Part shown: positions 4,288 to 37,960 of the stretch, one piece after another
How positions within the stretch are numbered: the first letter of the stretch is position 1
Layout of the letters: each line of letters opens with the position of its first letter
NCBI GenBank assembly: GCA_014799365.1
Contig: JAAVIF010000051.1
Location: 32,766-78,955, forward strand
Length of the DNA: 46,190 bases
Reading direction: 5' to 3'
Source of the DNA: Oscillospiraceae bacterium
GTDB lineage: Bacteria > Bacillota > Clostridia > Oscillospirales > Ruminococcaceae
Notes under the pieces: model-generated
Seen by the model: only the letters and a program-made list of their open reading frames with translations
Databases searched by the model: none
Told to the model about the DNA's origin: nothing
Position numbers and translations under genes: made by a program

Positions 4288-4325
4288 GGCATTTTTTGCA
4301 AGTTGTAAAAAAAATCCTGCAAATA

Positions 4326-4354
4326 TTGACTATTTCGGAAAGACGTGGTATACT
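4326..4354 (+). promoter_or_regulatory. SigA promoter of the ANTAR regulator gene
   Basis: TTGACT (4326-4331), 17 bp, TATACT (4349-4354), 59 bp before the GTG start. Confidence 0.8.
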
Positions 4355-4412
4355 ATACTAAGAGCTTTTAAATCAAGGCTTGTACGGCGATTCGGAGAAA
4401 GGCAGCATTACA

Positions 4413-5027
4413 GTGCGGAACATACTTATTGCAGGAAGAAACAAAAAAATATGCGAAAGCATTTCCGCTTTGCTTTCGGACGCGGGCAATCCCGACGCCT
4501 CGGAAAAAACGGAAGGCGCGGGAAATTCAAAAAACGGTTACAGGACGGTTTGTCTTACCGACGGAATACACGCAAGAAGCATTGACGTATCCGATTTTGA
4601 CATTATCATTATTTCCACGCCCTTGGAGGACGAATTTGGGCTTGATCTTGCGGCGGAGCTGCACGGAAAAAGCGGCGCGGGTCTTATTGTGATAACCAAA
4701 AGCGAGCACGCGGAGGAAATACAGAATAAAATCAAATTCACGGGAGCATTTGTTATCGGCAGACCCACCTCCAAGGCCGCGCTTTTACAGGCGGTAAGGT
4801 TTGCGGAGATCTCGGGCGAAAACGTAAAAAGGCTGACCGAGGAAAAGAACCGCTTGGAACGTCAGATAGAGGATATGAAGATAATCAACCGCGCCAAAGC
4901 GTGTCTTATGCAGTATCTTAAGCTTACCGAGGAGCAGGCGCACCGTCATATACAAAAGCAGGCAATGGATCTGAGGAAAACTCAAAGACAGGCAGCGGAG
5001 GATATTCTTCTGATGTATGACATATAG
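4413..5027 (+). CDS. ANTAR-domain RNA-binding antiterminator with a degenerate receiver domain
   Basis: 204 residues from the GTG at 4413, which has AGAAAGG 10 nt upstream; an upstream in-frame TTG at 4380 has no such site. Residues 1-115 resemble a response-regulator receiver, but the phosphorylatable Asp is missing: the strand reads DIIIISTPL where DLIILDxxMP is expected, and the acidic pair after strand 1 is also absent. A coiled coil (LTEEKNRLERQIEDMKII) leads to a C-terminal ANTAR domain (NRAKACLMQYLKLTEEQAH to the end). ANTAR proteins bind paired hairpins in leader RNAs and prevent termination, often in nitrogen or ethanolamine genes. No sensor kinase lies beside it, so activation is probably not by ordinary phosphorylation. 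Confidence 0.88.
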   Translation: MRNILIAGRNKKICESISALLSDAGNPDASEKTEGAGNSKNGYRTVCLTDGIHARSIDVSDFDIIIISTPLEDEFGLDLAAELHGKSGAGLIVITKSEHAEEIQNKIKFTGAFVIGRPTSKAALLQAVRFAEISGENVKRLTEEKNRLERQIEDMKIINRAKACLMQYLKLTEEQAHRHIQKQAMDLRKTQRQAAEDILLMYDI

Positions 5028-5139
5028 AGCGTGTCCCGAAAATATTTTGGATTGGAATAGCCGCGGGCTGCAAAGCCGCTGTTCCGCTTCATTTGTGGAA
5101 TATGCACTAAAAATAATTTTAAATTTGTTACAAAATCGG

Positions 5140-5168
5140 TTGACTTTTAGCTAAATTAAGGTTATAAT
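5140..5168 (+). promoter_or_regulatory. Promoter of the anchored surface protein gene
   Basis: TTGACT (5140-5145), 17 bp, TATAAT (5163-5168). An AAGGAGGAATAACC ribosome site precedes the ATG at 5223. The 112 bases before the promoter hold only a GC-rich imperfect hairpin (about 5055-5088) that could terminate the ANTAR transcript but lacks a T run. Confidence 0.85.
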
Positions 5169-5222
5169 CTTTATTATAGGCAAACTATACTTATATGCCT
5201 AAATTATAAGGAGGAATAACCA

Positions 5223-5993
5223 ATGAATTTTAAAAAGACTATTGCAGCAGCTGCTGTATCTGCTTTGGCAGTAACCGCTTTTGCTGTAAGCGCAAGCGCG
5301 GAGACCGCAGGCTTGATCTTCCAGACCAACGCTTGGACATTCCGCAACAACATTATCCAGAGCCAGGCTATCTGGTGGGATCCCGATTTCGGTGATGCAA
5401 TGAACTTTGACACATGGAACGTAAACGACGTAGAGATCACCGCTGACGGTACATACACCGTTTCTTTTGAAAAGAACATTATGGAAGACTGCAAGGACGG
5501 TCCCGAGCAGTTTTGGAACTTCCTTAAGCTTCAGACAGACATCTCCGCAGCAGAATATCCCGACGTACAGATCACTATCGACAGCCTTAAGGTTGACGGC
5601 AATGAAATAGCCGCTGCTAAGACCGCTACTCAGGGAAGCGACAAGGTTACTAAGGATGATTATTCCGATATCGCTTCCGTTAAGGAAGTTTCCGACGGCT
5701 ATCTCGTAGGCTTCTACAACGCATGGAATCCCGAAGAAACCGTTATCTCTTCCGAAGACTTCGGCGGCAAGGTTGAGTGCACATTCACAATCACAGGCTA
5801 CAAGGCTGCTGAGTCTGCCGCACCCGCTGAAGAAGCAGCAGCTCCCGAAGCTCCCGCGGCTTCCACAGGCGACACCAATACCGCAGGTGCTGACAAGAGC
5901 AATGCCGATACAGGTGTTGAGGGCGTAGCTGCTATCGCAGGTATCGCTATCATCGCTGCCGGTGCTATCGTTATAGCTAAGAAGAGAAAGTAA
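5223..5993 (+). CDS. Secreted surface protein with N-x-D-T-G anchor signal
   Basis: 256 residues. A clear Sec signal peptide (cleavage near ASA-ET at about residue 28) is followed by a beta-rich domain of about 170 residues with many Trp, Phe and Asn (NAWTFRNN, WWDPDFGDAMNFDTW, FYNAWNPEE). An Ala/Pro/Glu linker at about 195-215 leads to the C-terminal anchor: SNADTGVEGVA, a hydrophobic helix of about 20 residues, and AKKRK. That is the layout of a sortase substrate, but the motif is not LPXTG. The protein encoded at 28611 has the same ending. The central domain could bind carbohydrate, which is an inference. Strong promoter, strong ribosome site and a following terminator suggest a highly expressed single-gene unit. 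Confidence 0.8.
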   Translation: MNFKKTIAAAAVSALAVTAFAVSASAETAGLIFQTNAWTFRNNIIQSQAIWWDPDFGDAMNFDTWNVNDVEITADGTYTVSFEKNIMEDCKDGPEQFWNFLKLQTDISAAEYPDVQITIDSLKVDGNEIAAAKTATQGSDKVTKDDYSDIASVKEVSDGYLVGFYNAWNPEETVISSEDFGGKVECTFTITGYKAAESAAPAEEAAAPEAPAASTGDTNTAGADKSNADTGVEGVAAIAGIAIIAAGAIVIAKKRK

Positions 5994-6080
5994 GTAAATC
6001 TTGTCGATCTCTTTTGAGATCTCTAAAACTGTCCAATATACTTTGCGGACACGTACTGCAAGACTTTAACTTATAATAAA

Positions 6081-6109
6081 AAGGAACTCTTTTCAAGGGT
6101 TCCTTTTTT
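6081..6109 (+). terminator. Rho-independent terminator of the surface protein gene
   Basis: Stem AAGGAACTC / GGGTTCCTT (6081-6089 with 6097-6105) followed by a run of T. Confidence 0.85.
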
Positions 6110-6149
6110 GTTTGTTTTTCTATTTATACTAATTTAAACTTTAAAGGTA

Positions 6150-6178
6150 TTGACAAAATCTTTTTTATAGCGTATAAT
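6150..6178 (+). promoter_or_regulatory. Promoter of the peroxide-response cluster, with a possible OhrR operator downstream
   Basis: TTGACA (6150-6155), 17 bp, TATAAT (6173-6178), both consensus. Just downstream, 6193-6213 is an imperfect AT-rich palindrome (TGCGCAATTT ... TTTCCGCA) in the place where an OhrR/MarR repressor would block transcription. CAATCT / AGATTG (6213-6230) flank the AAGGAG ribosome site and could form a small hairpin over it. The operator call is inference. Confidence 0.7.
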
Positions 6179-6232
6179 ATAAATATTGGTTGTGCGCAAT
6201 TTAATTTTCCGCAATCTAAGAAGGAGATTGTT

Positions 6233-6774
6233 ATGAGTATTTATGATTTCAAGGTAAAGGCTCAGAATGGCGGCGAGGTTTCATTGTCCGATTATCGCGG
6301 GAAGGTTCTGCTTATAGTCAATACGGCGACAGGGTGCGGCTTTACTCCGCAGTATGACGAGCTTCAGGATATGTATGAGCTGCACCGTAAGAACGGACTC
6401 GAAATCCTGGATTTTCCCTGCAATCAGTTTGCAGATCAGGCTCCCGGCAGCGATGAGGAGATACACTCATTCTGTACGGGAAGATACGGAATTACTTTCC
6501 CTCAGTTTTCAAAGATAGACGTTTTGGGCGAGAACGCAGACCCGCTTTACAAATTTCTCTCCGAAAACACAACCTTCGGGGATTCGGGAAAGGTCCGATG
6601 ACTCTTATACTGAGTGCGGCAGCTAAAAAAATGGACAAAAATTACAAGAATAACGGTAATGTAAAATGGAATTTCACAAAATTTCTTATTGACCGTGAAG
6701 GAAATATCTCTGCACGGTTTGAACCCACAGAACCGATCAAAAACGTAAAATCGAAAGTGGAGGAACTTTTGTAA
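6233..6774 (+). CDS. Glutathione/thiol peroxidase, reading frame broken by a -1 shift
   Basis: Frame 1 (6233-6601, 122 residues) holds the N-terminal two thirds of a Cys-type glutathione peroxidase: NTATGCGFTPQY with peroxidatic Cys35 and FPCNQF with Gln65. Frame 2 (from the ATG at 6598 to 6774) holds the rest, including VKWNFTKFLIDREG with the catalytic Trp and Asn. Joined, they give a protein of about 180 residues, the normal family length, which reduces hydroperoxides with thioredoxin-like donors. The first frame stops at TGA 6599-6601, overlapping an ATG of the second frame (ATGA). The shift falls at GGGAAAG (6586-6592), a canonical -1 slippery heptamer in the correct phase. Three readings remain open: programmed frameshift, one-base deletion in the following GG run, or a base-call error. 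Confidence 0.85.
6586..6601 (+). other. Possible -1 ribosomal frameshift site in the peroxidase gene
   Basis: The heptamer G-GGA-AAG is in the phase needed for tandem slippage, and the -1 frame is the one that continues the peroxidase. The zero-frame stop follows three codons later. A purine-rich GGGGA (6578-6582) lies upstream where an SD-like stimulator would sit. No strong downstream pseudoknot was recognised by eye. Confidence 0.4.
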
Positions 6775-7040
6775 TGTTTCATTTTGATTATAAAACACAA
6801 GATACCTGTTCTCAGTTAATAAGCCTGAATATCGACGGCGATAAGGTGTATAACGTCAGCTTTACGGGAGGCTGCAACGGAAATCTTAAGGCTATTCCGA
6901 TTTTGGTTGAGGGCATGACGGTAGAGCAGATCGAGGAAAAGCTGTCGGGCGTTCTGTGCGGACGAAGACCCACTTCATGCGCTGATCAACTGACTAAGGC
7001 CGTTCGCGCCGCATACGAGGCAGCTCATAAACAGGTATGA
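6774..7040 (+). CDS. TSCPD-domain (TIGR03905-type) small protein
   Basis: 88 residues. It matches the small family named after a C-terminal TSCPD signature, related to a domain at the end of some vitamin B12-dependent ribonucleotide reductases: FTGGCNGNLKAIPILVEGM, then LCGRRPTSCADQLTKAV. Here the signature is TSCAD, so the Pro is replaced by Ala. Cysteines in GGC, LCG and TSC could bind metal. Function is unknown. The ATG overlaps the peroxidase stop (TAATG), so the two are translationally coupled. Confidence 0.82.
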   Translation: MFHFDYKTQDTCSQLISLNIDGDKVYNVSFTGGCNGNLKAIPILVEGMTVEQIEEKLSGVLCGRRPTSCADQLTKAVRAAYEAAHKQV

Positions 7041-7067
7041 ATTTTATTTTTATAGGAGGATATTTAT

Positions 7068-7550
7068 ATGAGCAAAAAATTGGTAGCATATTTCAGCGCA
7101 GGCGGTGTGACCGCTGACGCTGCAAAGAAAATTGCGCAAGGGGCAAATGCCGATCTTTATGAAATTCGTCCGGAGGTTTCTTATACCGCCGCGGATCTTA
7201 ATTGGCAGGACAAAAATTCCCGCAGCTCCGTGGAGATGAACGACAGAACATTCCGTCCCGCTCTTGCGGATAAAAATGCGAAAGCGGAGGAGTATGATGT
7301 GATCTTTCTCGGATTTCCTATTTGGTGGTACACCGCTCCCACTATCATCAACACCTTTTTGGAAAGCTATGAGATTTCGGGAAAAACTATCATATTGTTT
7401 GCCACTTCGGGAAGCACCGGATTTGATAAGTCGGCTGCGGATTTGAAGGTCAGCGTTGACGATAATACAGTTATCAAAGAGGGAATAGTGATCCACGGAA
7501 AGCAAAGCGCGGAAGAGTGGAAAAATTGGGTGGATTCTTTGGGGTTGTAA
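7068..7550 (+). CDS. Flavodoxin-family FMN protein
   Basis: 160 residues, the normal length for a short-chain flavodoxin. The first strand KLVAYFSAGGVTADAAKKIA carries the FMN-phosphate loop in a modified form (SAGGVT where SxTGNT is usual). VIFLGFPIWWYTAPTIINTFLE supplies the isoalloxazine-stacking aromatics, and TIILFATSGSTGFDKSAADL is the second cofactor loop. It probably transfers electrons or reduces quinones or peroxides in the cytoplasm. It starts after an AGGAGG site, 27 bp past the TSCPD gene and 3 bp before the OhrR-like gene, clearly one operon. Confidence 0.88.
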   Translation: MSKKLVAYFSAGGVTADAAKKIAQGANADLYEIRPEVSYTAADLNWQDKNSRSSVEMNDRTFRPALADKNAKAEEYDVIFLGFPIWWYTAPTIINTFLESYEISGKTIILFATSGSTGFDKSAADLKVSVDDNTVIKEGIVIHGKQSAEEWKNWVDSLGL

Positions 7551-19280: not shown

Positions 19281-20333
19281 ATGAAAAAATTTCTTCCCTT
19301 AATGATTTTATTATTGTTTATATCGACATTTTCCGCCTGCTCCGCAAATAAGGATAACTACACCGCACAAGAGGAAACCCCTCCCGCCTCATCAGAGAAA
19401 AAAATTTCTGCCGAAGCCACCGAAGAAACTGCTTATACAACTCCCATAGACCTTTCGGAAGGCGGCTGGCATTACATCCAAGGCACCGATCCTATAGAAA
19501 CCGTACGCAGTGCAATAGAAAACGAAGCAAATAAAAGTTATACGGAATATGTTGAATTTATCACGGCGCAGATTGACGAAGAAGGAACCGAGTGGTATCT
19601 TAATAAACGCATTATAGAGGCCGGATTTGCCGACACACCTATAAACAGCAAAACGGACAAAACCTACAACGATGTCAATATCGCCCTCGTTAACGTGGAA
19701 TATCACGCGGAATATGACGGCACAAGAGTTCCTTTTATGGACGGCCATTTAAGGGAAACCTTTTATCTTTGGCAGGATAAGGACACCGAGCTTTGGACGA
19801 TTTTTGACAATATGTCCCCAATTCCGTTCGTAATGGAAGAATGGGAGGGATGTATTTCAAAGGAAGCCTCTCGAAACGGCGAGTATTTGCCCACTCCCAT
19901 TGAATGGGAGCCCGAATACGAGGGAGAAATATACACAAGTGCTTATTGGATATACGAGCCCTCCGATGATCCCATTAGTGTAGTTAAAAGCGCGATAGAA
20001 AATCAGGCGGAAAAGGATTTTACTCTTGCCGTAAGCTTCAGCAGTGCGCAAACCGACCCCGAAGAAACGGAAAAGTATTCCCAAAGGCGTAAGGACAGCG
20101 AATTGGCTCAAAGGTGGAACATATCCGGCGAAATGTTTGACAGCGGGCGTGTAATTGCCGTTTACGCCAAGTATCATGTAAATTATGATCCCTCCGCAAC
20201 ATACCTCGAGGACGGCGATTGCGGACAGTATTTTTATTTGTGGCAGGACGGTGAAACATTGCTTTGGCATATATTTGAAAGCTCTTACAACCACACCGAA
20301 TACGGATATGCGGTGCTTTGGAGCAGATATTGA
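19281..20333 (+). CDS. Lipoprotein with two tandem copies of one domain
   Basis: 350 residues. Lipobox in FSACS (Cys20). Two related domains follow: about 50-170 (TDPIETVRSAIENEANKSY ... LWQDKDTELWTIFDN) and about 222-340 (DDPISVVKSAIENQAEKDF ... LWQDGETLLWHIFESS). Each starts with a helix and ends with a strand pattern YLWQD-x-E-x-LW, which suggests NTF2-like or DUF4829-like folds made by internal duplication. Function unknown; it is exposed on the outer face of the membrane. The remnant at 17320 is a deleted paralog, so the amidase gene lies between two copies of this family. Confidence 0.75.
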   Translation: MKKFLPLMILLLFISTFSACSANKDNYTAQEETPPASSEKKISAEATEETAYTTPIDLSEGGWHYIQGTDPIETVRSAIENEANKSYTEYVEFITAQIDEEGTEWYLNKRIIEAGFADTPINSKTDKTYNDVNIALVNVEYHAEYDGTRVPFMDGHLRETFYLWQDKDTELWTIFDNMSPIPFVMEEWEGCISKEASRNGEYLPTPIEWEPEYEGEIYTSAYWIYEPSDDPISVVKSAIENQAEKDFTLAVSFSSAQTDPEETEKYSQRRKDSELAQRWNISGEMFDSGRVIAVYAKYHVNYDPSATYLEDGDCGQYFYLWQDGETLLWHIFESSYNHTEYGYAVLWSRY

Positions 20334-22036: not shown

Positions 22037-22594
22037 ATGAAGCTGATGTTTTTAATAGGGAACTGCGCCGTGGGAAAAATGACGGTGGGACAGGAATTGA
22101 CGAAGATAACGGATTTTCGCCTGTTTCACAATCATATGACGATAGAACCCGTTATCGAGATATTCGGATATTATAACTCGAAAGCTATCAGCCGCATGAG
22201 AGAGGTCGTTTTTGAGGAATTTGCCGCTTCGGATAACTACGGACTGATTTTTACGTATATGTGGGCGTTTGACCAACAGTCTGACCGGGACTATGTGGAG
22301 CATGTTAAAGAAATATTTAAGCAAAGAAACGAGGACGTTGAATTTTACTGCGCGGAGCTTGTTGCGCCGAGGGAGATCCGCCTGCAAAGAAACGTCACGG
22401 AAAACAGGCTGAAAAACAAAGCTTCAAAAAACGATATTGAAGCTTCAAATCAATGGCTGATAAACGATGACGAAAAGTATCGGATAGAAAGCCTTGACGG
22501 TGAGGTTCCTTTTGAGAACTATATAAAAATCGATAATTCCGACCTTTCGCCCGAAGATACGGCAAGGAAAATAAAGGAATATTTTAATTTATGA
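22037..22594 (+). CDS. P-loop nucleoside/shikimate kinase-like protein
   Basis: 185 residues. A Walker A loop opens the protein (LIGNCAVGKMTVGQEL). A possible lid with basic residues is in EIRLQRNVTENRLKNKASKN, and the C-terminus has EDTARKIKEYF, as in small AAA_33/shikimate kinase-like phosphotransferases. The substrate cannot be told from the sequence. It is co-transcribed with malQ and followed by a terminator. Confidence 0.75.
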   Translation: MKLMFLIGNCAVGKMTVGQELTKITDFRLFHNHMTIEPVIEIFGYYNSKAISRMREVVFEEFAASDNYGLIFTYMWAFDQQSDRDYVEHVKEIFKQRNEDVEFYCAELVAPREIRLQRNVTENRLKNKASKNDIEASNQWLINDDEKYRIESLDGEVPFENYIKIDNSDLSPEDTARKIKEYFNL

Positions 22595-22685: not shown

Positions 22686-22847
22686 TTATTCCGATTTCAT
22701 TATTTCTTTAATTTTCCGCTCCACTTCTTCAGCCGAATAAACTCTGCTGTTTTCTATATCAGCCATTCCTTTAGCAATCTCCGCGTTAAACTGTTCTTCG
22801 GTAAGCTCGCTCATATCAAGCGGTTTTTTTGTAAGCTCCATCATCAT
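22686..22847 (-). CDS. Small RelB/DinJ-antitoxin-like protein without an adjacent toxin
   Basis: 53 residues beginning MMMELTKKPLDMSE, with LTEEQFNAEIAKGMADIE and RVYSAEEVERKIKEIM near the end. The R-V-Y-S-A-E-E-V ending is typical of Firmicute RelB/DinJ-type antitoxins and stand-alone relatives, although the usual N-terminal ribbon-helix-helix strand is not obvious. The start overlaps the stop of the preceding lipoprotein gene (ATGA), so translation is coupled. No RelE/YafQ-like frame lies next to it, and a terminator follows 10 bp after the stop. Confidence 0.7.
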   Translation of the reverse strand: MMMELTKKPLDMSELTEEQFNAEIAKGMADIENSRVYSAEEVERKIKEIMKSE

Positions 22848-24406
22848 TTTTCCCTTATGCTCCCTCCCACATATCTCCCCTGTCCTTGTTCTTCAAGCAC
22901 TGCAAAAGTATTCTCCGCAAAATACCTGTTATAATAATTCCGATCCATATAATGCACCAAATTTCCGTTTTCGTTTTCTCCCCAGCTCTCCATAATATAA
23001 TTCACAACATAATACCTATCCAAAAAACAGAATATCTCACAAACAATATAATCGTCACTTTCGAGCCGCTCGATCTCAGCCAAAAGCTTGTCCCCTTGAT
23101 TTCGGTTTACAAGCTCTTCCCGCGGCACCGATTCGCCCACTATCTCCTCACCCGAATCATAAAACATAAACGGCTTCCATGTATGACCGCCGCCAAGTGA
23201 ATTGGCGTCGTATTTGGATTGGTGCAAAAGAAATGTGCCTGTTTCGGGACCCAATAAAGGTTCAACGCACATACCCCATTTTGAAATTTCCGATTCAAAC
23301 CATACGCCGTTTTTTACTCCGAATATACTGCAAGGCGAGCCGTTGCCTCCCCCTTGAGCAATAAACAGATTTCCCACCCTGTAATGCCAATTTAAGGATG
23401 CTTCTATTTTTTCAAAATCGGAGCCGTTCCAAAAATATATGTAATTCCCGCCTTTTACATAGGAAAAAGCCTCATAATTGCCGTTACCGTCAAAATCATC
23501 AAATACGAAAAAAGCTTCTCCGAGAAAATCCGTATCTCTGTCGGCTTGAAAAAGCTTTTGCGCTTCACCTTTGCCTTTTATATAGAGATTATACACCTCC
23601 GCCGTTTTCCCTGCCATTTCCTCATAGGAAACCCTGTCGGAAAAATCAAAGGCGCATATTGACACCGCGTTTTCCGTAAGGTAAACATCGCCGTTATCAT
23701 AATCAAATCTGTGGTCGCGTCCTTCCTCGTATCCGTAACTTTCTTCCTCGTTCTCCAAATAATAGTCAACCGTTTCCAGCAGCGGATAATTACTGCCTGC
23801 AACGGCATAGGCTTTAAAATAAAGCGTCCTGTCAAGCTTTCCCTCGGAAAGGGTTATTCTGTCTATTTGGTTGAGCCGCTGATGATTCGAATGTTCGTAA
23901 AAATTATGCACGTACACGCATCCGTCATAAGTACTCAGTATTGTATACCCGTCCCGACAGTAGCCCTCAAATCCTCCTAAGTATGTACCATCAATATTAT
24001 AAACATCAACGGGCATCAAGCCTTGACCCGAATTATGCCGCACCAGATACACCTCGGGTACTCCGTCAAGGTCAAAATCATAAAGACCCGTGTAATATTG
24101 TTCCGTATCGGTTTTATTGTCATTCAGGATTTTGTCGATCTGTTCAACCGCCTTATGGGTCAATAATCCGTTTTCGTCGGTGTATTCCCCTTTTTGAATC
24201 GGCTCCGCAGCGGACGTTTCCTCTGTTGATGTAACAGAGTCGGCGGCTTCGGTTATCTCGTCGACGGTGCTGTACTGTTCCGCTTCTTTGGCAGCAGTTG
24301 TTGTAACCTCCGTATCGTTTTGATGTGTTGACGGCTCGTTTTTGAATGAGCAGGCGGAAAGCATCAGCACCGATAAGATAATTGCAATTGCCGTAATTTT
24401 TTTCAT
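22844..24406 (-). CDS. Large lipoprotein with FG-GAP/VCBS-like repeats
   Basis: 520 residues from the ATG at 24406, which has AGGGAGGGAAAGG upstream; an in-frame ATG at 24439 lies within the promoter region and is rejected. Lipobox LSACS (Cys19), then a Thr/Glu/Ser linker to about 70. The body contains acidic loops of the type found in FG-GAP/VCBS repeats: DFDLDGVPEVYL, FVFDDFDGNGNYEAF, and similar stretches that could bind calcium. Such lipoproteins are common in Clostridia and have no established function. It is the first gene of a two-gene unit with the RelB-like frame, under a promoter with TGTAAx direct repeats. Confidence 0.75.
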   Translation of the reverse strand: MKKITAIAIILSVLMLSACSFKNEPSTHQNDTEVTTTAAKEAEQYSTVDEITEAADSVTSTEETSAAEPIQKGEYTDENGLLTHKAVEQIDKILNDNKTDTEQYYTGLYDFDLDGVPEVYLVRHNSGQGLMPVDVYNIDGTYLGGFEGYCRDGYTILSTYDGCVYVHNFYEHSNHQRLNQIDRITLSEGKLDRTLYFKAYAVAGSNYPLLETVDYYLENEEESYGYEEGRDHRFDYDNGDVYLTENAVSICAFDFSDRVSYEEMAGKTAEVYNLYIKGKGEAQKLFQADRDTDFLGEAFFVFDDFDGNGNYEAFSYVKGGNYIYFWNGSDFEKIEASLNWHYRVGNLFIAQGGGNGSPCSIFGVKNGVWFESEISKWGMCVEPLLGPETGTFLLHQSKYDANSLGGGHTWKPFMFYDSGEEIVGESVPREELVNRNQGDKLLAEIERLESDDYIVCEIFCFLDRYYVVNYIMESWGENENGNLVHYMDRNYYNRYFAENTFAVLEEQGQGRYVGGSIREK

Positions 24407-24429
24407 TGCCTTTCCCTCCCTTTTTTGTA

Positions 24430-24474
24430 ATTGTATCATATAAAAAACGTAAATACAATTACAAAAGGGTTACA
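24430..24474 (-). promoter_or_regulatory. Direct-repeat operator and promoter of the large lipoprotein gene
   Basis: Minus strand: TGTAAC (24474-24469), N5, TGTAAT (24463-24458), -35 TTGTAT (24458-24453), 17 bp, -10 TACAAT (24435-24430). The operator and -35 region differ by one base over about 26 bp from those before 17320. Confidence 0.65.
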
Positions 24475-30447: not shown

Positions 30448-31395
30448 ATGAAAAAGTTTACTGGGTTTACCAAAGGGATAAATTTAGGCGGCTGGCTTTC
30501 CCAATGCGATTACAGCACCGAACGTCTCGAAGGCTTTATAACCGAAGACGACTTTAAAAAAATAGCGGGCTGGGGCGTTGACCATGTAAGGCTGCCCATT
30601 GACTACAATATATTGCAAAACGACGACGGAACGGTCAAGGAATCGGGCTTTTCTTATATCGACAAGGCACTGTCCCTTTGCGAAAAATATGGCTTGAATA
30701 CGATCATAGATCTGCATAAAACCATTGGCTACTCATTTGATAAGGGCGAAAACGAAAGCGGATTTTTTGACAGCATAAAGTACCAGGAAAGATTTTACGC
30801 CTTTTGGGCGGAGCTTGCCAGAAGATACGGCAATTCGGAAAGAATAGCCTTTGAGCTGCTTAACGAGGTGACGGATAAAGCCTTTTCCAAAAAGTGGAAC
30901 GAAATAGCCAAGGAATGTATTAAAAGAATACGTATTCTGGCAAAGGATACCGTGATTTTAGTGGGCGGCTACTGGAACAACAGTGTAGACGCGGTAAAAG
31001 ACCTTGATCTGCCGTATGATGATAAGGTAGTGTACAATTTCCACTGCTATGACCCCATGCCCTTTACTCATCAGGGCGCATCCTGGGTGTATCATATGGA
31101 CGTTTCAAAAAATGTAAGCTACGATCAAAGCGGCTGCAGCGCGGATAAGTTTATCAAAGCCTTTAAGGAAGCTTACGAAACGGCGGAAAAAAACGGCACC
31201 GTACTCTACTGTGGGGAATACGGAGTTATCGACAATGCGTCTCCCGAGGATACGGCTAAATGGTATAGGGATATAAACACAGCATTTGAGCATTACGGAA
31301 TAAGCCGCTGCGCTTGGTGCTACAAGGAAATGGATTTCGGGCTTTCCGATGAGAGAATGAAGGGGGTTATCGGGGAGGTCGTTAAGTGCCTTTGA
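30448..31395 (+). CDS. Cytoplasmic GH5 beta-glucanase/cellodextrinase
   Basis: 315 residues with no signal peptide. GH5 barrel: KGINLGGWLSQC start, WGVDHVRLPIDY, IIDLHKT (His90), acid/base Glu140 in FELLNEV, VVYNFHCYDPMPFTHQG (His199), nucleophile Glu257 in LYCGEYGV, and CAWCYKEMDFG near the end. Intracellular GH5 enzymes of this size (such as clostridial CelC types) cleave imported beta-glucan oligosaccharides. It therefore fits as the intracellular partner of the surface GH5 and the sugar-binding lipoprotein, under the divergent AraC regulator. Confidence 0.88.
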   Translation: MKKFTGFTKGINLGGWLSQCDYSTERLEGFITEDDFKKIAGWGVDHVRLPIDYNILQNDDGTVKESGFSYIDKALSLCEKYGLNTIIDLHKTIGYSFDKGENESGFFDSIKYQERFYAFWAELARRYGNSERIAFELLNEVTDKAFSKKWNEIAKECIKRIRILAKDTVILVGGYWNNSVDAVKDLDLPYDDKVVYNFHCYDPMPFTHQGASWVYHMDVSKNVSYDQSGCSADKFIKAFKEAYETAEKNGTVLYCGEYGVIDNASPEDTAKWYRDINTAFEHYGISRCAWCYKEMDFGLSDERMKGVIGEVVKCL

Positions 31396-31495
31396 TTTTG
31401 CTGTAAAAATAAGCGGTCTCAGAGTTACACACTAAACACAAATATCGTTTTAAAAAGCCATTTTTTTCCGCTTTTTAAACCGATATCGGTATTAA

Positions 31496-31530
31496 ATACG
31501 CCGTCTTTAAGGTAAGACGGCGTATTGTTG
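31496..31530. terminator. Terminator between the convergent GH5 and TIR-MORN genes
   Basis: Perfect 12-bp stem ATACGCCGTCTT / AAGACGGCGTAT (31496-31507, 31514-31525), T-rich on the right. A second AT-rich hairpin (about 31442-31486) lies just before it. Confidence 0.78.
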
Positions 31531-31572
31531 TTTTAAGCGGACTCTCAAAGATCGCTGTTTTTGTGAGACAGC

Positions 31573-33978
31573 TTAGCCGATAAATTTTCCGTTCTGCCAT
31601 GTGCCGGTTTGAACGGTGCCGTCGGCAAATGTTAAAGTGCCTTTTCCGTGCATTCTATTGTCTCTGAATTCTCCTTCGTAAACATTTCCGTTTGGATATT
31701 TATAGACGCCATGACCGTTATAGCTGCCGTCCTTGAATTCTCCCTCATAGGAACTGCCGGTGACAAATGTTTCGATACCGTGTCCTTCATATTTGTTATC
31801 TTTAAATCCTCCTGTATAAACATTTCCGTCTGAGTATTTCATCGTGCCGTGACCGTTCTTTTTATTGTCTATGAAGTCACCTTCATAGACATTTCCGTTT
31901 AAATATTTTATCATACCGCGACCATTGTATTTGCCGTCTTTAAATTCTCCCTCGTATACCTCTCCGTTTGAATATTTATAAACACCATGACCATTCTTTT
32001 TATTATCTTTATATTCGCCTTCGTAAACATCTCCGTCTAAATATTTAAATAAGCCAATACCATTCTTTTCATCATCTTTGTATTCGCCTTCAAAAATATC
32101 TCCGTCCGAATATTTAAATATGCCGTGACCGTTCTTTTTGCCGTCTTTGAAATCACCTTCGTAAACATCTCCACTTGTAAATTTAAAAGTGCCGTGACCA
32201 TTCTTTTTATCATCTTTGTATTCTCCTTCATAAATGTCTCCGTTTAAATGTTTATAAATGCCGTGGCCATTTTTTTTATCATCTTTGTATTCTCCTTCAT
32301 AAATATTTCCGTCTGAATATTTAAAGATACCATAACCATTTCTTTTATCGTCTCTGAATTCACCTTCGTATACTTCTCCGCTTGTAAATTTAAAAATGCC
32401 ATGACCATTATATTTGCCGTCTTTAAATTCACCTTCGTATACTTCTCCGCTTCTATATTTAAAAGTGCCGTGACCATTATATTTGTCGTCTTTGAATTCA
32501 CCCTCGTATACACTTCCACTTATAAATTTATAAATGCCATAACCGTTCCTTTTTCCGTCTTTGTATTTGCCTTCAAAAATGTCTCCGTCCGAATATTTAA
32601 ATATGCCATGACCGTTCCCTTTAGCGTCTTTGAATTCACCTTCGTAAACATTTCCGCTTGAAAATCTTAGGATGCCATAATTCATTTTATCGTCTTTGAA
32701 ATCACCCTCAAAAACATCTCCGTCTGAAAATTTCAGGATACCATGATTCATTTTATCGTCTTTGAAATCACCCTCAAAAACATCTCCGTTTGAAAATTTC
32801 AGGATGCCATGATTCATTTTATCGTCTTCGTATTCACCATCAAAAACATCTCCGTTTAAAAATGTATAGACGCATTTCCCGTCTCTGCTTCCGTTTTTGA
32901 AATTTCCCTCGTAAACATCTCCGTTCAAATATCTAAAGTTACCATGACCGTTTATTCCATTATCTTTGAACTCCCCCTTGTAAACGCTCCCATCCGAAAA
33001 GTTATATGTACCTTTTCCGTCCATTTTTCCGTCTTTCCATTCTCCCTCGTATATTTCTCCGTCCGAAAATGTCATGATACCTTCCCCATACGGCTTATTA
33101 TTATACCATTTTCCCGTATAAATACCGGGAAATTCTTTGTTTGTGATTTCATTGACAAATATATATGATATATTTTCAACACAAGTCGGCTTATTGCCGG
33201 CTTCGGCAGCGATTGATGCTTCCTTAGCTTTTTCGTTTTGCGCGTCTGTTTTGGCCTTTGTAACGGTACTATCCGTTTTACCGCCCTGCTTTTCCTCGGA
33301 TATCAGCGTTTTGTCGAACACATCGCTGCTGACGGAATTTATCGTATAGTTTAAAGCGTCAAGATCGTTTATGGACTTTCTGTTTATTGAAGCGTCACGG
33401 AAAAAGCTCAGGAATGCCTCCGAAATGTCATATTTTGACAGCACGTCCTGTTCCAACGTGGTTAAAATGCTAATATACGCCGTTTTCATCGCTCTCATTA
33501 AATCGCTTGCGGTGTCGTTGGCATTTGTGGCTATATTGGCTCCTTGACGGAGAATTTCGTTTTTTACGCACCGTTCCACATGAGGACGATCGTTCACGTC
33601 TCCGCGGCGAAGTTTTTCTTCAAGAAATACGAATACCACATGCTTTTTGTTGTTAACGGCAGTCATAAGCTCCAAAAAGCATGCGTAGCTTTCAATATAG
33701 CTTTGACTTACAAAAGCTATGACCGCGTCCGCACCCCGAACATTTCTCAGCATAGGTATAAGCCAGCTGTCGTTCACCTTATCAAACGCCGTATCCGAAT
33801 ATACGGAAAGGCCGTACCGCTTTTGAAACGGCACAACGATCTTCTTGAATACGGTTTCCCAATTGTCGCTCGCATAACTGATAAAAACATACGGCTTATT
33901 TTGGGAACACTCCGTTATGGTAAGATTCTTTTTGAGATATTTCGAGCGTTCGGTTCTTTGCGCCGTATCCAATGCCAT
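31573..33978 (-). CDS. TIR-domain protein fused to about 22 MORN repeats
   Basis: 801 residues. Residues about 28-170 form a TIR domain: KPYVFISYASDNW as first strand and box 1, then ADAVIAFVSQSYIESYACFLELM, where Cys100-x-x-Glu103 corresponds to the catalytic Glu of NAD-cleaving TIR domains. A charged linker (about 170-284) leads to 22 MORN repeats of 23 residues (three are 22) plus a partial one, pattern VYEGEFKDGKxNGHGxFKYSDG. MORN repeats form an extended beta-strand groove that binds lipid or protein. No signal peptide; cytoplasmic. It is monocistronic with its own promoter and a strong AAAGGAG site. NAD cleavage on phage or membrane damage is plausible but inferred. Confidence 0.9.
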   Translation of the reverse strand: MALDTAQRTERSKYLKKNLTITECSQNKPYVFISYASDNWETVFKKIVVPFQKRYGLSVYSDTAFDKVNDSWLIPMLRNVRGADAVIAFVSQSYIESYACFLELMTAVNNKKHVVFVFLEEKLRRGDVNDRPHVERCVKNEILRQGANIATNANDTASDLMRAMKTAYISILTTLEQDVLSKYDISEAFLSFFRDASINRKSINDLDALNYTINSVSSDVFDKTLISEEKQGGKTDSTVTKAKTDAQNEKAKEASIAAEAGNKPTCVENISYIFVNEITNKEFPGIYTGKWYNNKPYGEGIMTFSDGEIYEGEWKDGKMDGKGTYNFSDGSVYKGEFKDNGINGHGNFRYLNGDVYEGNFKNGSRDGKCVYTFLNGDVFDGEYEDDKMNHGILKFSNGDVFEGDFKDDKMNHGILKFSDGDVFEGDFKDDKMNYGILRFSSGNVYEGEFKDAKGNGHGIFKYSDGDIFEGKYKDGKRNGYGIYKFISGSVYEGEFKDDKYNGHGTFKYRSGEVYEGEFKDGKYNGHGIFKFTSGEVYEGEFRDDKRNGYGIFKYSDGNIYEGEYKDDKKNGHGIYKHLNGDIYEGEYKDDKKNGHGTFKFTSGDVYEGDFKDGKKNGHGIFKYSDGDIFEGEYKDDEKNGIGLFKYLDGDVYEGEYKDNKKNGHGVYKYSNGEVYEGEFKDGKYNGRGMIKYLNGNVYEGDFIDNKKNGHGTMKYSDGNVYTGGFKDNKYEGHGIETFVTGSSYEGEFKDGSYNGHGVYKYPNGNVYEGEFRDNRMHGKGTLTFADGTVQTGTWQNGKFIG
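31615..33126 (-). repeat. Tandem 69-bp coding repeats (MORN array)
   Basis: About 22 units of 69 bp, three of them 66 bp. The 66-bp units (roughly 32684-32881) are nearly identical at DNA level over the first two, which indicates recent tandem duplication. Copy number is likely to vary between strains and to be a hazard for short-read assembly. Confidence 0.85.
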
Positions 33979-34011
33979 TGCTTTTACTCCTTTGAATGAA
34001 AATCCGATTAT

Positions 34012-34055
34012 GTTTATATATAAACAATTTTATCATAGGCGGAATAAAATGTCAA
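34012..34055 (-). promoter_or_regulatory. TIR-MORN promoter with a palindrome at the start site
   Basis: Minus strand: TTGACA (34055-34050), 17 bp, TAAAAT (34032-34027). A perfect 14-bp palindrome GTTTATATATAAAC (34012-34025) covers the expected transcription start. It could be a repressor operator or a short 5-prime hairpin. The rest of the 33979-34223 gap is AT-rich; no promoter for the rightward ger operon was recognised, consistent with reading by a sporulation sigma factor. Confidence 0.7.
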
Positions 34056-34223
34056 TATATAACAAAAAATGTAAATTTGATAAAATTATTTATACTAATT
34101 TATAATAATGAGTGTAAAAACTTTGATTATTATGAAGCGTATGTTTTACATCTGTTCGGTTAAAATAACAAGAGCAAATATTATACCGATGACAATTTGA
34201 ATAATAAAAAGGAATGATATAAA

Positions 34224-35699
34224 ATGGAGCTTAAAGAACAATCTATCTCTCCCTCCATAGACGAGACCGTAATAAATCTGCGCACGATAATGTCCAACAG
34301 CAGCGACCTGACATTGAAGCACGCCAAAGCGGGCGGACACGCTATCTGCATCGTTTTCTGCGAGGGCATGGCAAGCACGGGTACAATGGCCGACCTGATA
34401 TTTCAGCCCATAAACACCCTTACCGCGGATATGCCCTTTGAGGAGCTTGTACGAACCTTGGAGGACGGGCTTATAATAGCGGGAGAGCAAAAGCAGTCGG
34501 ACACCTACTCCGATATTTGCGCGGATATAATGTCGGGCTTTGTGACTATTCTTATAGAGGGACTTGATCACGCAATTTCGCTGGGAGTTCAGGGCTACGC
34601 CGCCCGCTCGGTGGAAGAGCCTTCAACTCACAATAACGTCAGAGGCAGCCGCGACGGCTTTGTAGAAGTGGTAAGAACCAACGTTTCCCTTGTGCGCCGC
34701 CGTATGAAAAACACCGACCTTGTTTTTAAAATGATGAAGTTGGGCGATATGTCCCAAACCGACGTTTGTATGTGCTATATAAAAAACGTGGCGGACAAGA
34801 AGCTGGTTAAAGAAGTGGAAAAAAGACTTAAAAACCTGCCTCTGAACACCATTCTGGAGGGGGGCTATATACAGCCCTTTTTGGAAAATCCGGGCAATCA
34901 GCTTTTTTCCGAGGTGGGCGCGACGGAACGTCCCGATGTGTTTACCTCCAAGCTTCATGAAGGCAAGGTGGGCGTGCTTATCGACGGAACGCCCTTCGCG
35001 CTTTACCTGCCCAAGCTTTTTATGGAAAATTTCTCGGTAATAGACGACTATACGGGCAGACCCTTTTTCGCCGCTTTAATACGTGTTATAAGATATATGG
35101 CGATAATTTTCGCGACGGTGGTTTCGGGTTTTTACGTGGCTCTTGCCAATTTCAACCCCGAGCTGTTTCCCGAAGCACTTTTGCTGAATCTTGCCACCAG
35201 TATACAGGACACGCCCTATCCGCTGCTGGCGGAATGCCTTGTTATTCACGTGTTTTATGAGGTAATGAGGGAAGCGGGACTGCGTATACCCACAAATATA
35301 GGTCACGCCGTGTCTATCGTGGGCGGCCTGGTTATCGGCGATATTGTGGTATCGGCGGGTCTTGTGGGCGCGCCAATGGTTTTAATGGTGGCAATGTCGG
35401 CGATCACAAGCTTTGTTGTTCCCGATCTGTACGACAGCATCGCCGTACTGAGATTTGCTTATATAATAGTGGGCGGCATGTGGGGCTTGTTCGGAATAAC
35501 CATACTTTCCGCTTTGATAGCCATAAAGCTGTGTTCTCAGGAAAGCTACGGAGTGCCTCACACCGCGCCTATTTCGCCGTTCTCACCTAAGGCACTTCGC
35601 GACTTTATAGTCAGAAGAAGCTGGAGAAAAATGGCGGAAAGAGATTACCGTGTGCAGGACTTAGCAGGAGTCAACGTAGGGGAAATAAACGAAAAATAA
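34224..35699 (+). CDS. Spore germinant receptor A subunit (GerA/SpoVAF family)
   Basis: 491 residues. N-terminal soluble domain (about 1-280) with LVRRRMKNTDL, and the family signature ERPDVFTSKLHEGKVGVLIDGTPFALYLPKLF, then transmembrane segments between about 290 and 440. In the inner spore membrane it forms a ligand-gated channel with the B and C subunits and starts germination on nutrient binding. AAAGGA lies 10 nt before the ATG. First of three co-directional ger genes. Confidence 0.93.
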   Translation: MELKEQSISPSIDETVINLRTIMSNSSDLTLKHAKAGGHAICIVFCEGMASTGTMADLIFQPINTLTADMPFEELVRTLEDGLIIAGEQKQSDTYSDICADIMSGFVTILIEGLDHAISLGVQGYAARSVEEPSTHNNVRGSRDGFVEVVRTNVSLVRRRMKNTDLVFKMMKLGDMSQTDVCMCYIKNVADKKLVKEVEKRLKNLPLNTILEGGYIQPFLENPGNQLFSEVGATERPDVFTSKLHEGKVGVLIDGTPFALYLPKLFMENFSVIDDYTGRPFFAALIRVIRYMAIIFATVVSGFYVALANFNPELFPEALLLNLATSIQDTPYPLLAECLVIHVFYEVMREAGLRIPTNIGHAVSIVGGLVIGDIVVSAGLVGAPMVLMVAMSAITSFVVPDLYDSIAVLRFAYIIVGGMWGLFGITILSALIAIKLCSQESYGVPHTAPISPFSPKALRDFIVRRSWRKMAERDYRVQDLAGVNVGEINEK

Positions 35700-35718
35700 A
35701 TCAAAGGGAGAACAACAG

Positions 35719-36831
35719 GTGCAGTTAACATCAATTAAAAAAATAAGCTATGTACAGCTTGCGGTGCTGTTTGTAGCTTCAAGGCTTTTTTCGGAAGCAA
35801 TGAGCTTTCCTTTGGCAAACACCGAATACGGCATGCAAAGATTTGCCGTTATTCTGACCGCTTACGTGATCTTATTCATTCAGTATATCCCGCTTATTTA
35901 TATTTCAAAAAAATATCCCGGCGAAAGCGCGATAGGCATTATAACCGACCGAAACAAGGTATTGGGCTGGATATACGCCATACTTCTGATGATCTCGGTG
36001 CTGATCTCCTCGATCTCCTCAATGTGCCGCATGAAGTTCTACGCTTCCAGTACCATTTTCGGTCAGGCGCCGGATTACCTGTTAATTATCCTGCCCTTGC
36101 TCGCCTGCGCCTTTGCGGTATGGAAGGGCATTCAGGCAACGGCAAGAAGCGGCGTTATTTTTGCGGCGGTGTTCGTGGCGTTTTTGATTTTGATTTCCGT
36201 AAGCACCTGGAATATGTTCGACGTTAATTGGCTTTATCTTAACTTTATTGATAATAAGGATTCCTTTTTGTCGGAGGTACTGGAGCAGATAGGAAGCAAC
36301 TCGGAAATAATCTTTTTCGCCGCCCTGACGGAACACGTTTCCGAAAAATCCCAGCGTACCGTTTACTGGTACATTCCCGCCGTAATGCTTATACTGGAGC
36401 TTATGCACCTGCTTGAAATGCTTGTGCTCGGACCTTTTCTCGGAAGCGCAAATTTTCCTTTCTTTACCGTTTCCGCTCTTTCAAACATCGTGCTTTTCCA
36501 AAGGCTTGACGGTATCGACGTGGCGGTATGGACGTTAATGTGTATCGTTAAGATCTCTCTTGCAATGCTTTGCATAAGAACGGCTTTCAACAGGCTTGCG
36601 GGAAAAAACGCGGGAATTATTTCCGCATTGGCGGGATTGGTGATAATAGCCGCCGTGTCGATGATGTTCGGAGGTAACTCGGATTTTGTCATAACGATAA
36701 CCGGAATTTTGACCTGCGGTATTCCCATGATAACCTGCGGAATAGTTTTTCCGATTATCGCTATAATAACGGCAAAGCTTAAACCAAACAAAAACAGTAA
36801 AGGAGCAAAGGCGAATGAAAACGGTGCATAA
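35719..36831 (+). CDS. Spore germinant receptor B subunit (GerAB permease-like)
   Basis: 370 residues from a GTG start with AAAGGGAG upstream. About ten transmembrane segments of the amino acid permease fold: SYVQLAVLFVASRLFSEAMSFP, FAVILTAYVILFIQYIPLIYISK, YLLIILPLLACAFAVWKGIQATARSG and others. The B subunit carries the germinant-binding pocket in the known receptors. 19 bp behind the A gene and overlapping the C gene by 17 bp. Confidence 0.92.
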   Translation: MQLTSIKKISYVQLAVLFVASRLFSEAMSFPLANTEYGMQRFAVILTAYVILFIQYIPLIYISKKYPGESAIGIITDRNKVLGWIYAILLMISVLISSISSMCRMKFYASSTIFGQAPDYLLIILPLLACAFAVWKGIQATARSGVIFAAVFVAFLILISVSTWNMFDVNWLYLNFIDNKDSFLSEVLEQIGSNSEIIFFAALTEHVSEKSQRTVYWYIPAVMLILELMHLLEMLVLGPFLGSANFPFFTVSALSNIVLFQRLDGIDVAVWTLMCIVKISLAMLCIRTAFNRLAGKNAGIISALAGLVIIAAVSMMFGGNSDFVITITGILTCGIPMITCGIVFPIIAIITAKLKPNKNSKGAKANENGA

Positions 36832-37960
36832 AACATTTTCCGCGCTGCTGCTTGCGGTATTTTCCCTGATTACCTTTTCGGGCTGCGTACCTCACACCGA
36901 GCTGAACGAAAAAGCCATAATCCTTGCAATAGGCATTGACTACAAGGACGAAAAATATAAGGTTACATTTCAGTACTACAACCCTACGGGCATAGGCGGC
37001 CGTACTCTTGTGGACAACTCCCAGCCCAATGTTCTGACCTCAAATGGCGAGGGAGAAAACGTCTACGCCGCCTTGGAGGACGCTTCCTTTCGCTGCGGCC
37101 GCGAGCTTATGCTCGGCGTAACTCAGCTTATTGTAATAGGCGAGGACGCGGCAAAATATTCGGTAAACAAGGTAATGGAGTTTTCAAAAAGCTTTTTCCA
37201 AAGTCACCCCGATATGCTGGTTACGGTCGCGGAGGGAGAAGCGCAGGAGCTTATGAAGGTTAAATTCAGCGAGGGAATAGTATCGACCCAAAAGCTGAAA
37301 TTTATGCTTACCAACGCGGAAAAAAGCGGCATAGTGGGGCTTCCCAGTGCCATTGAGCTTTTTACCGCCTTGCAGACCAACCGAAAAAGCGCGGCACTGC
37401 CGAGACTTAGACTGCTGGACAGCGGACAAAGCGACGCCTCCGAGGACGGAAAAACCCTTGAAATATCTGGAGGCGTTCTGATCAACGACGGAAAAGCCGT
37501 GAGCGATGTGGATATAGAAGTGATGTCGGGGCTGGAGCTTTTATGCTGTAAGACCGAAACGGGCACGGTAACTATAAATTATAAGGACGAGAAAATATCG
37601 GTGGGCTTGGTGGATATTAAGACAAAAATAAAGCCCTCCTTTGAAAAGGGACGGTTGGTCTTTACCGTTGATCTTACCTCGGGCGGACGGTTTTTGGTAA
37701 CTCCGCAGGGCGATTTTGAAGAAAATAACGGCGAAATGGAAAAAATGTGCGAGGATGAGATAATCAAGAGAATGGAATCGGCTGTGAAGCAGACGGTTTA
37801 CGAACACGGCGCCGATCCCTTTTTGCTTGAGAAAACCGTGAGACATTGTGATTATAAGCTTTGGAAAGAGGTCGAATCGGATTTCGAGGAGTATTTGAAG
37901 AATGCGGAGTTCAGATTTAATGCGAAGATCGAAATAGATAAGCTGATTTTAAGTAAGTAG
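36815..37960 (+). CDS. Spore germinant receptor C subunit (GerAC lipoprotein)
   Basis: 381 residues. Lipobox in FSGCV (Cys24), then the Ger(x)C family sequence ELNEKAIILAIGIDYKDEKYKVTFQY, followed by the N-terminal domain and the C-terminal domain ending in YKLWKEVESDFEEYLKNAEF. The lipid anchor attaches it to the outer face of the inner spore membrane. A copy of the long repeat begins 13 bp after the stop; no ordinary terminator is seen. Confidence 0.93.
   Translation: MKTVHKTFSALLLAVFSLITFSGCVPHTELNEKAIILAIGIDYKDEKYKVTFQYYNPTGIGGRTLVDNSQPNVLTSNGEGENVYAALEDASFRCGRELMLGVTQLIVIGEDAAKYSVNKVMEFSKSFFQSHPDMLVTVAEGEAQELMKVKFSEGIVSTQKLKFMLTNAEKSGIVGLPSAIELFTALQTNRKSAALPRLRLLDSGQSDASEDGKTLEISGGVLINDGKAVSDVDIEVMSGLELLCCKTETGTVTINYKDEKISVGLVDIKTKIKPSFEKGRLVFTVDLTSGGRFLVTPQGDFEENNGEMEKMCEDEIIKRMESAVKQTVYEHGADPFLLEKTVRHCDYKLWKEVESDFEEYLKNAEFRFNAKIEIDKLILSK

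Follow-up and report, generated by a model that had tools for sequence, protein, structure and literature searches.

A 46,190-nucleotide stretch of an Oscillospiraceae genome (contig JAAVIF010000051.1 of assembly GCA_014799365.1; hereafter the window) carries a gene for a protein that joins an N-terminal TIR domain to an array of MORN repeats. In gut Clostridia, genes for relatives of this TIR domain frequently adjoin one for a channel-like protein that carries a ryanodine receptor (RyR) domain and, at fewer loci, one for a DHH-family phosphoesterase. As judged from sequence, the TIR-RyR pairing suggests an undescribed bacterial signalling circuit, and we put at about even odds (a probability of roughly 0.5) that the window gene is a soluble, partnerless offshoot of this TIR-RyR-(DHH) messenger-circuit family.

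The reading frame of the gene is on the minus strand, the plus frame of 31573-33978 being riddled with stop codons. Its parts are the following:

31573..33978, minus strand: TIR-MORN gene, 801 codons plus stop, intact
33316..33978, minus strand: family-defining N-terminal part, residues 1-221, with the TIR core (Pfam TIR_2, residues 31-123) and C-terminal helices
33670..33681, minus strand: Cys100-Phe-Leu-Glu103, the presumed catalytic site, unchanged in all 33 family rows of the alignment
33121..33315, minus strand: linker, residues 222-286, without transmembrane helix
31576..33120, minus strand: MORN array, residues 287-801, 22 units of 22-23 residues and one partial unit

The earlier note on this DNA, made from the sequence alone, had described an 801-residue TIR-MORN fusion with a Cys100-x-x-Glu103 site and 22 MORN repeats plus a partial one, and this architecture was borne out throughout: the open reading frame is intact, the pair Cys100 and Glu103 is where it was placed, the repeats run with a 22-23-residue period from residue 287, and Pfam matched both TIR_2 (41.5 bits, cut-off 28) and MORN (358 bits in total, 19 scored stretches). 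Nucleotide identity among the 19 MORN units of 23 residues is 0.66 on average and 0.90 at most. Against the PADLOC and NCBIfam profiles, the window protein gave no match at E<=1.

With the whole protein as the query, most matches in relatives were to the MORN part, so the TIR part was used instead. A family alignment (A1; three rows, residues 1-221) was scanned over GTDB genome contigs and gave 125 pattern matches, among them 31 relatives in 30 loci, which by record title are largely from Lachnospiraceae and Oscillospiraceae. Over residues 1-221, 31 other family rows (the partial L067 excluded, locus L065 counted as three tandem copies) are 58-74% identical to the window protein, and the row from a phage-labelled record, L041, is 33% identical. 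Conservation stops near residue 221, the part downstream being variable. Scans of IMG/VR, with the single protein and with A1, found no relative.

When the genes at the 30 loci were clustered with the TIR genes set aside, the most widespread family was present in 18 loci and the next in eight, all others occurring in four or fewer. The most frequent family is the RyR-domain protein, and tblastn lifts its count to 19 of the 30 loci by adding L067. In these 19 loci, the RyR gene lies within 2.4 kb of the TIR gene and is mostly adjacent to it; in 16 of the 18 that were measured, it is on the same strand within 140 bp, and it is upstream except at L069. At L052 and L060, the distance is ∼2 kb, with the DHH gene in between. 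The RyR protein is 455-482 residues long in 16 of 18 cases, and Pfam RyR was found in both members scanned (37.4 and 35.5 bits, cut-off 27.4). The single chain combining sensor and effector, as proposed in the earlier note, is not supported as the general design: at 19 of the 30 loci, a second gene encodes the likely receiver. That the protein stands alone, as also proposed, applies to the window copy, which has no RyR, SLOG, or prokaryotic Argonaute (pAgo) gene next door, and not to the family.

The link was also followed in a Lachnospiraceae-type sample of 397 genomes around G452, a centre picked for having both genes. A TIR of more than 400 bits was found in four genomes and an RyR of more than 800 bits in the same four, the next RyR scoring 391 bits; the cut separating these four from the rest was chosen after the scores had been seen. 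One of the four is the centre itself and the other three are the genomes of L044, L069, and L071, so that this is a separate sampling of genomes already in the set. Three more sampled genomes have weaker TIRs (77-100 bits), none of them with an RyR at E<=1e-30. Thus, the TIR accompanies one close RyR subfamily, and RyR-channels at large occur without it.

A model of the RyR protein (16-row alignment; predicted local distance difference test score, pLDDT, 85.8) begins with a helix at residues 2-34, a pore-type helix at 41-54, and a helix at 65-97, and continues with two Rossmann lobes and the RyR domain at ∼369-455. In VIA-align, it scored 14.5 with KtrA, 14.3 with TrkA, 13.8 with GsuK, and 9.5 with the RyR chimera 6uhi; the GsuK match spans residues 5-343 at a root mean square deviation of 9.5, which implies that domains shift. 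Foldseek listed dehydrogenases first, via the Rossmann lobes, and GsuK eighth. The protein is thereby modelled as a chain of two helices with a pore helix, a part resembling regulators of K+ conductance (RCK), and an RyR domain, similar to GsuK plus RyR, and we take the family to be derived from channels. GsuK is a K+ channel with two transmembrane helices and a dual RCK, and both ADP and NAD+ activate it (available text of PMC3510474); from GsuK, the TIR-linked proteins differ by their extra RyR domain and by having no K+ filter signature.

RyDEP proteins, which are encoded by phages and have an RyR domain, cleave or sequester 2'/3' cyclic ADP-ribose (cADPR), and the residues contacting or cutting 3'cADPR are H75, W78, H100, and D117 (PMC13232231, in the part available). 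These residues recur at equal spacing in the TIR-linked RyR rows, as H403, W406, and H428 in 16 of 16 and as D445 in 15 of 16 (numbering of L056, a locus of genome G014). In contrast to RyDEP as described in the accessible portion of PMC13232231, the RyR domain here is part of a host protein of channel-like build whose gene accompanies a TIR gene, so that it would be a receiver rather than a sponge.

The family present in eight of the 30 TIR loci is the DHH-family phosphoesterase (Pfam DHH, 45-47 bits in three members scanned). In CorA-type III CRISPR systems, the messenger is SAM-AMP, which is broken down by NrN, a DHH enzyme (PMC10600005, available part); by analogy, the DHH protein at the TIR loci would remove a messenger. 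On this reading, both arrangements would combine a membrane effector with a DHH-family messenger-removing enzyme; the messenger maker is Cas10 in the one, as far as the same text goes, whereas the other has an RyR protein and a TIR. On contig C4 of the window genome (L038), a second TIR gene (5684-7336, minus strand; TIR, hydrophobic segment, and DUF6273) lies directly beside a gene for a DHH protein (4173-5666, minus strand) that is 39% identical to the DHH protein of the TIR-RyR loci; this second TIR does not match the window TIR family (E 0.13).

A near-identical set of genes, by eye, is shared by MT836912.1 (L041, a human faecal record labelled as phage) and genome G013 (L037, L187): a CorA-like protein (PADLOC E 1e-48 for the L041 copy), a 774-residue RyR-like protein (a weak RyR match of 18.3 bits; at E<=0.1, Pfam gave no RyR for the G013 copy), and a TIR protein whose repeats are of a different type. 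Here again, a TIR of the wider group lies beside an RyR-type and a membrane protein. The set adjoins a gene called Phage_Mu_F by Pfam in G013, where the TIR is broken by stop codons; it is open in the faecal record. G013 has a CRISPR-Cas system with a 47-copy array upstream of the TIR locus; as this system is type I-C and not type III, the idea of a CRISPR-linked TIR with a Cas10 messenger was dropped.

The putative enzyme of the circuit is the TIR domain itself. Its predicted structure (pLDDT 88.6), proposed as a check at the outset, folds as a TIR, and Glu103 is part of the helix of residues 98-109, which follows the third strand. The best 50 VIA-align rows are all TIR proteins, those of SARM1 and SPARTA included, and the Foldseek list is led by TIRs (best E 3.1e-4) with a few nucleoside deoxyribosyltransferases; profile and fold thus both place the protein in the TIR superfamily. 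The conserved glutamate is catalytic in TIR NADases. Many TIR domains are adaptors, and the TIR could be a non-enzymatic assembly module that touches the RyR protein or other TIRs. The family's sequence match to solved TIRs is indeed weak, the best being the CRISPR-associated Cat1 (E 0.065), but precisely in this match, Cys100 and Glu103 pair with a cysteine and a glutamate of Cat1, and neither residue varies in the family; a mere scaffold is therefore held to be improbable, the least probable of the alternatives considered.

The part that follows the TIR differs among the relatives. MORN repeats were found by pattern in 22 of 32 family proteins, three others (L042, L056, and L067) ending earlier at contig edges; the L063 protein has Sel1 repeats by Pfam, those of L055, L058, and L061 look similar by eye, and in those of L044 and L068, nothing but hydrophobic segments is seen towards the C-terminus. 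Locus L065 (7201-11927, plus strand) contains three tandem family TIR genes, two with MORN and the third with a Cys-rich C-terminus; judging by these copies, the repeat part looks exchangeable. A membrane helix after the TIR is present in 28 of 30 scorable relatives (hydropathy threshold 1.6; two further rows were too short) and is missing from L042, where the contig end cuts the protein, and from the third L065 copy. The window protein lacks this feature of its family as well, hydropathy reaching at most 0.30 past residue 222 (19-residue windows). By the positive-inside rule, the more positive flank of a membrane helix is cytoplasmic, and in 26 of the 28 relatives, this is the N-side flank, which would place the TIR inside and the repeats outside the cell.

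In the circuit proposed here, a trigger sensed by the repeat region would bring the TIR domains together, and these would then make an ADP-ribose-type messenger from NAD+; binding of this messenger to the channel-like partner, through its RyR domain, would open a pore or otherwise switch the partner on, and the DHH enzyme would serve as the off-switch by clearing the messenger. The window copy would have lost both helix and partner, loss being inferred in preference to an older state. Without a helix, and with no RyR partner found in a genome 86.5% complete, the protein would act in the cytoplasm, either lowering NAD+ or making a messenger for some other receiver, and the MORN array would serve as a scaffold or a sensor. 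A fuller version likens the whole circuit to the layout of Toll-like receptors, with a cytoplasmic TIR, exchangeable outward repeats (MORN, Sel1, or other), an ADP-ribose-type messenger, an RyR-gated channel, and a DHH off-switch, the window protein being a soluble intracellular sensor; this version is tentative and more probably wrong than right.

A number of observations weigh against the circuit and the place of the window gene in it. In 11 of the 30 TIR loci, no RyR gene is present in the stretch examined; of their genomes, three contain a close RyR elsewhere (at the L052 locus in the case of L045), four contain a diverged one only, and four contain none. On the TIR tree, presence of RyR is scattered (11 changes compared with 11.2 in shuffles; L067 left out), without sign of a single gain or loss. 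Diverged RyR proteins without a family TIR occur in 34 of the 397 genomes, and in the reciprocal search of 391 genomes of the class, which gave 18 with an RyR match and seven with a full-length one, a family TIR was near none of the seven (flanks of up to ∼8 kb, one contig being 4.6 kb). The partner is not uniform either: at L061 and L063, only residues 159-460 match and the channel-like part was unseen, and the protein of L059 is diverged (28% identical). A canonical K+ filter is present in none of the 16 TIR-linked RyR rows, which makes conduction by the TIR-linked protein a guess. The RyDEP site residues are kept in animal RyRs, too (PMC13232231, available text), and are for this reason no proof of a cADPR ligand. 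The window TIR has a branch length of 0.72 compared with a median of 0.093 and breaks nine of 76 positions that are invariant in the other 29 rows, and may thus be drifting. Finally, the neighbourhoods of the 30 TIR loci are not rich in defence genes, as detailed below.

Diverged RyR homologues at L112, L113, L114, L122, and L123 carry the canonical K+ filter, as TTVGYGD or TTAGYGD. The genes at L112 (4901-8603, minus strand), L113 (2337-6110, minus strand), and L114 (5303-9110, minus strand) each adjoin a gene for a second protein of 652-664 residues with a weak RyR match, and no family TIR is alongside.

For the window genome itself, neither Pfam RyR nor a one-protein search, both run without a positive control, detected an RyR protein, and there was no match to alignment A2 at E<=1e-10 in the search that matched 18 of the 391 class genomes. 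This makes room for a self-contained NADase effector, in which the MORN array senses a target or assembles on it and the TIR drains NAD+ to stop cell or phage, with neither messenger nor channel. The TIRs of SARM1 and SPARTA, both among the best fold matches, do drain NAD+; the Cys/Glu site is intact, the window copy is alone, and four of the 11 RyR-less loci are in genomes without any RyR match. Pure NAD drain, however, explains neither the RyR gene near 19 of the 30 relatives nor the coincidence of TIR and RyR in the 397 sampled genomes, and a partner may have escaped notice in an incomplete window genome. We regard such an effector as rather unlikely, yet as the strongest competitor of the partnerless-offshoot reading.

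The gene is patchily distributed. Among 71 genomes of the same genus, the window genome and G014 (68% identity) are the only two with a full-length close TIR, G013 holds a fragment with stop codons (48%), and six more have only weak matches (24-29% identity); in a sample of 394 genomes of the order, only the window genome, G014, and G013 match at E<=1e-12. In contrast, the GerA protein encoded next to the TIR-MORN gene is found in 58 of the 71 genus genomes at E<=1e-100. The GerA protein of the sister genome G015 is 98% identical, and in G015, the cellulase gene is followed by ∼450 bp and then GerA, without TIR-MORN:

31399..34192, no strand: stretch without blastn match in G015, homology ending at 31398 and restarting at 34193

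The break indicates that the whole gene with its promoter was inserted here or deleted in G015. No TIR match was found elsewhere in G015, which is 76% complete. The comparison of the empty site is with G015 only, as the other five relatives taken for it showed no cellulase gene in the stretch examined. Judging from these genomes, the TIR-MORN gene is not fixed in its place. The empty site (L181, ∼3900-4360) contains repeated AATCCCTTTT/AAACTG-type sequence, possibly a small mobile element. In G014, the gene after the MORN fragment (L036, 730-1320, minus strand) looks VWA-type by eye, with nothing above the Pfam cut-offs.

These data bear on a further alternative, namely that the gene is a transferred cassette that has lost partner and membrane helix and is now a neutral or decaying orphan. 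The absence from G015, the broken locus of G013, the long branch, and the nine changed positions fit this idea. The other helix-less protein, the third L065 copy, behaves similarly: it breaks 12 of 79 otherwise invariant positions (family median 0.5), and together with the window protein, it has the most changed invariant positions and, apart from L041, the longest branches. Against decay stand the 801 open codons, the 11/12 promoter-like site with a palindrome, and the state of the protein, whose Cys/Glu site is intact and whose 22 MORN units are well preserved; it is considered improbable, if marginally less so than the scaffold.

The earlier note had also proposed to look for enrichment of defence genes near the homologs, and none was observed. 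Among 128 neighbour proteins of the TIR loci (at most five nearest per locus, 130-800 residues, complete, without X; TIR, RyR, and DHH clusters excluded), 13 PADLOC models were matched by one or two members each at E<=1e-10, compared with 28 models for 79 proteins from 13 control loci with a diverged RyR and no family TIR. The control is crude, several of its loci being parallel copies of one region, and the neighbour open reading frames were called greedily, so some may be spurious; L061 and L064 contributed none. As the neighbours are no richer in PADLOC models than this control, a defence island was rejected as evidence; by Pfam, they belong to families of many kinds. The L050 TIR-MORN protein has a weak match to PD-T4-6 (E 1.8e-4) over linker and helix, and the RyR and DHH proteins of L050 have no PADLOC match at E<=0.01. 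Patchy spread, empty site, and the relative in a phage record are compatible with a role in conflict, without establishing one. One of the 128 neighbours, L067:4034-5596 (minus strand), is an antisense reading of the L067 RyR gene. Control locus L111 may have a diverged RyR gene in the vicinity of genes for a type III methyltransferase and a DpdF-like protein, such models being among those matched by the control proteins as a set.

We file the TIR-RyR system under TIR-based nucleotide signalling. In Thoeris, the TIR protein ThsB makes cADPR isomers and the SLOG protein ThsA is the receiver. The logic inferred for the present family is similar, a TIR gene next to a separate receiver gene with a nucleotide-binding domain, but the receiver is RCK-like, RyR-bearing, and channel-like with no SLOG seen, the relatives' TIR is mostly membrane-bound with repeats, and for the window copy no receiver was found. 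Among its Pfam-scanned window neighbours, there is neither a SLOG-bearing ThsA, as in Thoeris, nor a pAgo, as in SPARTA, and its C-terminal part is MORN where SPARTA has an APAZ domain. With Toll-like receptors, the membrane-bound relatives share repeats, one membrane helix, and a TIR in each chain; unlike them, they are TIR-first and have MORN or Sel1 in place of leucine-rich repeats, and the window copy is helix-less. No homology is claimed outside the TIR. A 2015 survey of nucleotide-centric conflict systems in Nucleic Acids Research reportedly discusses RyR and TIR domains, so that the TIR-RyR link may have been predicted earlier. In the literature searched, judged mostly by titles and abstract openings, neither TIR-MORN proteins nor TIR-RyR pairs or such a circuit were found; the text of PMC9503650 makes no mention of RyR, ryanodine, MORN, DHH, or TrkA, and that of PMC7159879 none of MORN, RYR, or DHH.

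If the pairing is a circuit, RyR domains would have a host-side role in TIR signalling in addition to the phage-side role shown in PMC13232231 (part available), and NAD-derived signals would be tied to a channel-like protein in bacteria; cADPR is implicated in animal ryanodine receptors, as noted in the same portion of PMC13232231. The TIR and RyR genes of gut bacteria form a small, testable pair, for which the window gene provides a natural partnerless variant for comparison.

Around the TIR-MORN gene, the window contains the following:

34027..34055, minus strand: promoter-like site TTGACA-17-TAAAAT with extended -10, 11/12, a consensus match only
34011..34026, no strand: perfect 16-bp palindrome TGTTTATATATAAACA, operator-like, directly downstream of the -10
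31495..31526, no strand: terminator-like hairpin of 13 pairs, in the gap where the cellulase and TIR-MORN genes converge
30448-31395, plus strand: GH5 cellulase gene, convergent with TIR-MORN
34224-37960, plus strand: GerA operon, divergent from TIR-MORN

The gene therefore does lie between a cellulase gene and a germination operon, and the promoter and operator-like palindrome claimed for it in the earlier note are present upstream as candidate signals. Pfam assigned its neighbours to GH5, a solute-binding protein, AraC, and the GerA operon; three sizeable open reading frames of the window (22844-24439, minus strand; 19281-20333, plus strand; 22037-22594, plus strand) were Pfam-negative at E<=0.001. 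Promoter-like sites are frequent in the window (19 compared with 10.0 in shuffles, two of them 11/12), and terminator-like hairpins, scored on the plus strand, number three compared with 2.6. The 16-bp palindrome has a single copy in the window, whereas shuffles average 0.01 copies (up to two mismatches allowed).

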